From: Natrononativus amylolyticus
GTDB lineage: Archaea; Halobacteriota; Halobacteria; Halobacteriales; Natrialbaceae
Length of the DNA: 64,000 nucleotides
Direction of reading: 5' to 3'
Assembly (NCBI RefSeq): GCF_024362525.1
Contig: NZ_CP101458.1
Span: forward strand, 992,001 to 1,056,000
Position 1 is the first letter of the stretch; each line of letters begins with the position of its first letter. The position numbers and the translations under genes were made by a program. This document shows, one piece after another, positions 4,464 through 42,311 of this stretch. The notes beneath the pieces were generated by a model that was not told where the DNA came from, did no database searches, and was given only the letters and a program-made list of their open reading frames with translations.

Positions 4464-5162
4464 ATGGACAAACAGGACCTGCGCGAGCGCGTGTGGGACG
4501 ACCTCGAGGAGTCGGGCGTCGCCCGGTTTCCGTTTCCGCCCCACGGCCGCATCCCAAACTTCGCCGGCGCCAGCGAGGCCGCCGATCGGCTGGCCGACCA
4601 GCCCGAGTGGCGGGCCGCGGAGACGATCAAGGCGAACCCGGACGCCCCGCAGCTCCCCGTTCGGCGGCGAGCGATGCGCGAGGGGAAGACGGTGTACGTG
4701 GCGGTGCCCCGGCTCCGCGATCCGGAGTGTTTTCTCAGACTCGATCCCGACGACGTAGCGGACGTCGACGAGGCGACGACGGTGTCGGGCTCGTCGAAAC
4801 ACGGCGTTCAGGTCGGTCCCGACGCCGTCGAGGAGATCGACCTGATCGCCTCCGGCAGCGTCGCCGTCGGCGAGAACGGCGGTCGAATCGGAAAAGGGGA
4901 GGGGTACAGCGACCTCGAGTACGCGATCCTGCGGGACCTCGAACTGATCGACGAGGGGACACCCGTCGTCACGACGGTTCACGAGCGACAGGTCGTCGAC
5001 GCGGTCGAAACCGACGCCCACGACGTCCCGATGGACCTCGTGGTGACGCCGGAGCGCGTCGTTCGCCCCGAAGCGGGGACTCGACCGACCGGCCTGGACT
5101 GGTCGCTGCTCGAGGACGACCGTCTCGCGGAGATTCCGGTGTTAGAAACGCTGCGGCCGTGA
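4464..5162 (+). CDS. 5-formyltetrahydrofolate cyclo-ligase family protein
   Basis: 232 residues of the MTHFS family, which converts 5-formyl-THF to 5,10-methenyl-THF with ATP. Visible features are the N-terminal [26 protein letters not shown] region, a glycine-rich loop [17 protein letters not shown] that matches the family's phosphate-binding GxGxGYYDR-like motif, and the C-terminal [10 protein letters not shown]...[11 protein letters not shown] typical of archaeal members. Function rests on the family motif. It is the last gene before the structured RNA candidate. Confidence 0.85.
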
Positions 5163-5232
5163 GAATCCGGCGCTCTCGAGAGCGGGTGCTTGGGGACGAG
5201 CATCGAAACCAAAACCGACCCAGGGAGGGTGA

Positions 5233-5415
5233 GGCCCCGGGTCGTATCGCGACGGTGGTGTGAGCCGGTGCAGTGGGCCCACATCACCTGGGTGCGCGAT
5301 GTGGCAATGGTGGGGGAAGGGTGCTGTGGTGGGGTTGCTGGAAGTCACGGGATCGACAAGGCGTGGGGTGCCTGACGGTGGTAAGCCCGTCGACCTCCAC
5401 CCATTGCTACCGGGG
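5233..5415 (+). ncRNA. Candidate structured non-coding RNA
   Basis: The ~400-base gap between the cyclo-ligase and the next gene has no plausible ORF but nested complementarity. CCCCGG (5235-5240) pairs with CCGGGG (5410-5415). 5254-5266 pairs with 5276-5288 over 13 positions with one G-U and one A-C mismatch. 5301-5310 pairs fully with 5401-5410 including one G-U. Inside that, GUGGGGU (5363-5369) pairs with ACC/CCAC (5393-5400) and GACGG (5374-5378) with CCGTC (5387-5391). The G-U pairs favour the plus strand. No RNase P or SRP signature is present. A TATA-like GGGTTAAAC on the minus strand at 5480-5489 leaves the strand open. Confidence 0.45.
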
Positions 5416-5567
5416 GGAACTACTTGAAGCGAGGCGACGCTACACTCTCTTATTCCGGATTCCGTTTCACTTTACTCCAGTTTAACCCGCCACAAAACCG
5501 GCGTAGAACGTTCATAGATGGATCTCACCGAGAAGTGGCGATAAACATAAAAGCGATCCGACACCGA

Positions 5568-5891
5568 TCAGCCGGTCAGCTCCTCGGCGACCACGCTCGC
5601 GTCGACCAGGCGCGGGTCGATCGCGAGGTCGAGCTGGCCGCGAACGAACTCGGGAACCGTGTCGCGTGCGTAGACGACGGTCCGGAGTTCGTCGGTGAGA
5701 TCGCGGGCGATCGGGATGGTCGTGGCCTCCGCGACGTCGGTGAGGACGTACAGGTCCGCCTCGAGGATTCCCGCCTCCTCGAGGGTGGGCCGCGAGAGAA
5801 CGCCCGTGAGCCGGGTGACGTCGACGCCTCGCTCCTCGAGCGCGTCGGCGATGCCGTCCTCGTCGGGGCCGGCGACGATCGCTCGAGTCAT
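5568..5891 (-). CDS. Small Rossmann-like protein in the pyrG-guaAb operon
   Basis: 107 residues with alternating strands and helices: [42 protein letters not shown] and [25 protein letters not shown]. It looks like a single TrkA-N/CheY-like Rossmann domain without a clear GxGxxG. Its ATG overlaps the guaAb stop as ATGA, so it is translated as the third gene of pyrG-guaAb and may be linked to nucleotide metabolism. This order is common in haloarchaea; the biochemical role is unknown. Confidence 0.75.
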
Positions 5892-41396: not shown

Positions 41397-42311
41397 CTAC
41401 TTCTCGGCGCGAGCGGTCTGCATCATCGCGCTGTTGTACGACGAGCCGAGCGTCCCGCGGGCGTCGATCGCGATGACGCCCGCCGTCGAGCCGGTCAGCT
41501 CCGCGAACTCCTCGATCGCGAGATCCGTCGCCGCCTGCGCGGAGAGGCCGCGTTCGACGTGGCGGGCGACGCGCCTCGAGAGCGTGACGCGGGCGATGTC
41601 CTCGCCGGCGCCGGTCGCGCTGACGCCGGCGGCCGGCGAGCAGTAGTAGCCCGAGCCGACCTGCGGGACGTCGCCGACGCGGCCGGCCAGCGCGAGCCAG
41701 CGGCCGCCGGTCGAGGTCGCCGCAGCAAGCGCCTCGCCGTCGAACGCGACGGCGCCGACCGTGTCGTGATCCATTTCGTCGCCGACGCCCGGCGTCGCGG
41801 CCGATTCCCCGGAACGGCCGCCCGGGTCCGTTCGCCCGAACTCCTCGCGGATCCACTCGAGTTGGCTCCGGGGGCCGCCCGCCGGCGGCTCCAGGGCGTC
41901 CCACTTCTCGCGGGTTCGTTCCGACCAGAGGTCGACGTCCGTCTCGACCCCGTAACTTTCGGCGAGCGCGACCGCGCGTTCGCCCGCGAGGAACACGTGC
42001 GGCGTCTCCTCCATGACGACGCGCGCCGCGCTGACCGCGTGCTCGACGCCCGGCATCGAACAGACCGCGCCGACCGACCGGTCGTCGGTCATGATTCCCG
42101 CGTCCGTTCGGATCACGCCGTCACTCTGAACCGCTCCGCCGACGCCCGCGTTGAACCGGGGCGAGGACTCGAGTACCGTGACCGCGGCCTCGACGGCGTC
42201 GACCGGGGTCGATTCGCCCGCGCCGACGTTCGCGGCCTCCTCGAGCACGTCCAGTCTTGCCTCCGGCTCCTCGGGCTCGCCACCGGCACCGCCGTGAACG
42301 ATTACCTGCAT
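41397..42311 (-). CDS. Isoaspartyl peptidase/L-asparaginase (Ntn hydrolase)
   Basis: 304 residues. Motifs: VHGGAG (5-10), SSPRFNAGVGGAVQSDG (49-65), and the autocleavage/nucleophile Thr184 in MDHDTVGAVAF, then STGGRWLALAGRVGD and GEDIARVTLSRRVA. It self-cleaves between Asp183 and Thr184 and hydrolyses asparagine or isoaspartyl peptides. The ~30-residue segment before Thr184 (DPGGRSGESAATPG) is a flexible loop as in family members. The ATG at 42311 is the classical MQVIVHGGAG start. Confidence 0.9.
   Translation of the reverse strand: MQVIVHGGAGGEPEEPEARLDVLEEAANVGAGESTPVDAVEAAVTVLESSPRFNAGVGGAVQSDGVIRTDAGIMTDDRSVGAVCSMPGVEHAVSAARVVMEETPHVFLAGERAVALAESYGVETDVDLWSERTREKWDALEPPAGGPRSQLEWIREEFGRTDPGGRSGESAATPGVGDEMDHDTVGAVAFDGEALAAATSTGGRWLALAGRVGDVPQVGSGYYCSPAAGVSATGAGEDIARVTLSRRVARHVERGLSAQAATDLAIEEFAELTGSTAGVIAIDARGTLGSSYNSAMMQTARAEK

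Follow-up and report, generated by a model that had tools for sequence, protein, structure and literature searches.

The interval at positions 5163-5567 of the window (the whole stretch of 64,000 nucleotides of Natrononativus amylolyticus DNA that was analysed) carries no evident gene, as had been noticed from the sequence itself, and this raises the question of whether it encodes an RNA and, if so, from which strand and with which function. The first-pass annotation had proposed a new haloarchaeal structured ncRNA, read from the plus strand. The RNA itself is backed by conservation, covariation, and the lack of an Rfam match, whereas the strand was wrong and most of the helices drawn were wrong or due to chance. 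Based on comparison with related genomes, the interval very probably contains a single-copy, independently transcribed, structured ncRNA gene of about 190 nt on the minus strand, which occurs with this strand and architecture in most Natrialbaceae. The strand, helices P1 to P4, the promoter elements, and the genomic place are established by sequence comparison; transcription would begin with the first P1 base and stop at a terminator-like hairpin (Table 1).

Table 1. Features of the RNA locus and its neighbours, in window positions
Feature	Position	Strand	Basis
ncRNA gene, inferred transcript of ~190 nt	5208..5398	-	Model R1 match 5296-5399; fold z -3.05; covariation in relatives
Conserved upstream element	5448..5517	-	Base frequencies in 67 loci; TTAAAYTCGG-type repeats
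TATA-like element CTTCAAGTAG, family consensus GTTSAAGTRG	5420..5429	-	Fixed spacing; TTSAAGT near-invariant
-10 'WW' element (TA)	5408..5409	-	A/T in 96% and 99% of 67 loci
Helix P1, 5' strand TGGAGGTCGACGGG	5386..5399	-	99% of cells paired, 73 sequences
Asymmetric internal loop L1	5374..5385	-	Alignment; CCCCACC-rich in relatives
Hairpin P2, AGGC...GCCT	5359..5373	-	87% of cells paired; 4/4 pairs changed on both sides
Helix P1, 3' strand CCCGTGACTTCCA	5339..5351	-	73-sequence alignment
Linker, unpaired, C-rich, nearly invariant GCAACCCCACCACAGCACCCTTCCCCCACCAT	5307..5338	-	Alignment columns mostly invariant or nearly so; mostly unpaired in fold
Domain P3/P4: closing helix P3 around hairpin P4 (5255-5265 with 5277-5287)	5245..5306	-	Covariation
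Terminator-like hairpin GACCCGGGG...CCTGGGTC, then GGTTTTGG	5209..5243	-	In MFE fold
Neighbour: small protein gene downstream of guaAb	5568..5891	-	ORF; adjoins RNA in nearly all loci
Neighbour: 5-formyltetrahydrofolate cyclo-ligase-like gene (named in the first-pass annotation)	4464..5162	+, convergent	ORF; adjoins RNA in most loci

A first line of evidence consists of the distribution of the RNA among genomes. A DNA search with positions 5215-5435 matched 30 of 61 genomes, that of the window included, all of them from the same family, the Natrialbaceae. A minus-strand covariance model of the RNA core (R1) was searched in a sample of 293 genomes, encompassing 63 Natrialbaceae and about 230 genomes of other families; it matched 58 of the former, with one match per genome, and none of the latter. 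Similarly, an exact-pattern scan of named genomes retrieved 46 stretches, all assigned by title to Natrialbaceae genera or MAGs (Natrinema, Natrialba, Natronococcus, Natronorubrum, Haloterrigena, Halostagnicola, Halovivax, and others). The RNA nearly always occupies the gap that separates guaAb/DUF7126 from the convergent cyclo-ligase gene, the order guaAb, small gene (which we take to be DUF7126), RNA, cyclo-ligase gene being near-constant, and it is kept even in loci with just one of the two neighbours detected in the flank. Relatives outside the family were also sought through the promoter pattern. A first scan yielded five outside matches. Two of these were the same sequence in two families, another two lay in front of a repeated gene that they share and that resembles a transposase, and one was situated in an apparent coding sequence; a later scan yielded four, of which two preceded similar protein genes and two preceded tRNA genes. 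None of these matches was a relative of the RNA. Two stretches, L127 and L130, belong to genomes from different families and look the same along all of the ~850 bases inspected; they are probably shared through a mobile element or plasmid. Furthermore, the stretch from promoter to P1 is present twice in one genome (G110:C14:41315-41349 and 41456-41490), in identical copies spaced 141 bp apart, which may represent a tandem duplication. Concerning known families, Rfam 15 gave no match in the window at the gathering cut-off and only weak chance matches on positions 5160-5560 (E 3-5), in line with the novelty that had been claimed. As had also been claimed, the RNA is neither RNase P RNA nor SRP RNA; archaeal models of both (RF00373 and RF01857) found no match in the window, and the genome's own genes are located at C1:2755103-2755495 and C1:361764-362075, respectively, which strengthens this exclusion. 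A coding origin was rejected as well, as the distances from the start of P1 to the linker differ modulo 3, so that there is no shared reading frame.

A second line of evidence comes from compensatory changes, which support all four helices in the sequences compared. P1 is a conserved 13-bp helix (5386-5399 with 5339-5351) around a short hairpin (5359-5373), an arrangement that replaces the two-part hairpin drawn earlier at 5363-5400. Among 73 sequences, one P1 pair is UA or CG and another is GU, GC, or AU; most P1 pairs are invariant, so this helix rests on few changes. In the alignment of P1 and P2, also of 73 sequences, five pairs changed on both sides, and none of 500 shuffles reached the observed values. 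In the P3/P4 domain, 93.6% of the cells were paired and 18 of 20 pairs had changed on both sides (49 distinct sequences), versus 3-7 in slid controls; again, 0/500 shuffles reached the observed values. Covariation in related genomes, as looked for at the outset, was thus found in both parts of the RNA. P4 corresponds to the 13-position hairpin of the first-pass annotation (5254-5266 with 5276-5288), the nine core pairs of which have all changed on both sides in relatives. The underlying alignments (A3 and A5) had been fitted to this structure and so favour it somewhat. In the copy of the window, P3 has diverged; the 3'-domain model R2 gives 21.7 bits, and another helix appears in its stead in the MFE fold. 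The P4 hairpin seems to be duplicated in L019, L023, L115, and L184, with a CTGCACC loop in every copy. Two other helices drawn earlier are due to chance. A 10-bp long-range helix (5301-5310 with 5401-5410) is not conserved in relatives, as the longest run of pairs was 3-6 in 59 of 67 sequences and just one of the eight longer runs fell below p 0.05 upon shuffling; the arm at 5401-5410 is part of the promoter, ahead of the presumed start of the RNA. Similarly, one arm of an outer CCCCGG/CCGGGG pair is promoter DNA, and the other (5235-5243) pairs within the terminator-like hairpin (5217-5243).

The RNA is assigned to the minus strand because its G-U pairs fit that strand. Indeed, 96.3 and 93.5% of the cells in two alignments were paired when read as minus-strand RNA, versus 87.3 and 87.1% as plus-strand RNA, and one P1 pair is G-U in 73/73 sequences, where the plus strand would have an A-C mismatch. 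The wobble argument that had been put forward for the plus strand is thereby reversed, the conserved G-U pairs being on the minus strand. Folding agrees with this. The trimmed region 5208-5398 had a z-score of -3.05 as minus strand (0/200 shuffles as good) versus +0.94 as plus strand, and the mean over 40 loci (185 nt from P1, 40 shuffles each) was -3.83 versus -0.33; the plus-strand fold of 5220-5430 was no better than shuffles (z -0.77). A plus-strand RNA would be compatible with hairpin P4, which is able to form on either strand, but both the share of paired cells and the fold z-scores favour the minus strand, making this explanation extremely improbable.

A third line of evidence concerns transcription, as elements at fixed spacing suggest that the RNA has its own promoter. 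In 64 of 65 loci, the sequence GTTSAAGTRG precedes P1 by exactly 30 nt. The 20 nt between this TATA-like element and P1 show little conservation, except that positions -10 and -9, relative to the first P1 base, are nearly always A or T. Haloarchaeal TATA boxes with a WW -10 element have this arrangement (PMC4983044), although the word differs here from the canonical TTWT. Given the 30-nt spacing and the -10 element, the RNA should begin with the first bases of P1, around 5398; a start at GTTSAAGTRG, with TAAGA as the TATA box, was dropped on the same grounds. TATA-like words that look alike by eye precede the genes for SRP RNA and for RNase P RNA in the same genome. Inspection by eye also showed the pattern GTTSAAGT...WA...TGGAG ahead of tRNA genes of two genomes from other families (L234 and L237). 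Three genomes of a single genus that were missed by R1 (G008, G036, and G281) have the promoter elements of the RNA gene at the corresponding place, with TGGAGACCACG...CGTGGTCTCC instead of P1, an inner hairpin, and a tail rich in C; nothing alike was found at that place in G289, a fourth genome of this genus. Another divergent version was recognized by eye in G026 (L064), and in the divergent loci L064, L072, L075, and L076 the spacing of the TATA-like element is unchanged. Further upstream, the conserved element contains five invariant or near-invariant A's at -83, -73, -62, -52, and -42, with a period of about 10.3 bp. This helical period suggests protein binding or DNA bending, and the conservation of the element suggests that transcription of the RNA may itself be regulated. 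Phased repeats of the GTTCA/GAATTCGG type also occur in G008, G036, and G281 upstream of a gene for a predicted lipoprotein (L103, L104, and L105), presumably resembling DUF4382, which suggests a shared regulator for the two genes.

The 3' end of the RNA, around 5208, would be formed by the terminator-like hairpin, at the place of which most relatives have GC-rich inverted repeats (by eye); no conserved T-run following the hairpin at 5209-5243 was shown, nor did the terminator scan list this hairpin. The scan did indicate a terminator-like site at 5575-5558, overlapping the 3' end of the preceding gene. This site bears on the alternative that the conserved block represents regulatory DNA or the 3' untranslated region of the guaAb/DUF7126 operon instead of an independent RNA. 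Such an explanation would account for the position of the block behind that operon on the same strand and for the resemblance of the upstream element to protein-binding DNA. It does not sit well with the terminator-like site at the DUF7126 stop, the covariation of the helices, G-U pairs included, the separate TATA-like and -10 elements at fixed spacing, and the absence of any same-strand gene downstream of the RNA within the window, and is therefore considered improbable.

As to the function of an independently transcribed RNA, its two structured arms may hold up the unpaired, nearly invariant C-rich linker, which would serve as a contact surface for a protein or RNA partner. The RNA would then work as a stable small RNP or as a trans-acting regulator. 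This mode of action, derived from the conserved architecture, is put forward tentatively, with somewhat less than even confidence, and the linker could be conserved as DNA instead. A special case of the regulator would be a base-pairing sRNA, with the C-rich linker pairing with G-rich sites on mRNAs. The length, unpaired state, and near-invariance of the linker fit this idea, as does the action on mRNAs of haloarchaeal sRNAs such as sRNA132 (PMC6560208). However, complements of the linker core (14 nt, one mismatch allowed) were not enriched over a reversed control pattern in 10 genomes, nor was a recurring target place seen in these genomes besides the RNA gene itself; mRNA pairing is regarded as rather unlikely. 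The possibility of an H/ACA or C/D guide for rRNA modification was weighed too, given that the RNA is a structured and presumably stable archaeal RNA and that a study of H. volcanii identified no H/ACA RNA (PMC2584109). Within a non-exhaustive search for a guide pocket, pairing of the linker with 16S and 23S rRNA was not clearly beyond chance, as 16/60 and 3/60 dinucleotide shuffles, respectively, were as good, and the longest perfect match of 8 nt was also the commonest value in shuffles. An earlier test with mononucleotide shuffles, performed without 16S rRNA, had looked stronger for 23S rRNA and is superseded by these results. In addition, no Rfam guide family matched at the cut-off, and neither an ANA box beside the basal stem nor C/D boxes were seen by eye; a guide function is considered very unlikely. 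Returning to the stable RNP, a more specific version would be an undescribed family of Natrialbaceae RNAs, the linker of which would bind either a dedicated RNA-binding protein or the translation machinery so as to titrate or recruit it, with the helically phased upstream element as control; this version is regarded as rather doubtful.

To our knowledge, few haloarchaeal small RNAs are conserved beyond one genus, and a literature search found no paper describing the RNA of the Natrialbaceae. Since it occurs across a family, has helices that covary, a predicted promoter and predicted ends, and offers a clear candidate binding surface, it can be tested directly in cultivable hosts such as Natrinema and would be a candidate new Rfam family. 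Among known systems, it shares a structured, single-copy nature with RNase P RNA, and it resembles SRP RNA in being a single-copy, probably stable RNA with a similar TATA-like element in this genome. The archaeal H/ACA and C/D guide RNAs are likewise small stable RNAs with hairpins, but the present RNA differs from them in that no family match was obtained, no guide boxes were seen, and its complementarity to rRNA was not clearly beyond chance. Finally, sRNA132 is a 138-nt RNA of the phosphate regulon, confined to Haloferax (PMC6560208). Compared by description and not base by base, both RNAs are lineage-restricted and intergenic, with their own promoter and a conserved place, whereas the RNA described here is longer and extends over many genera of another family.
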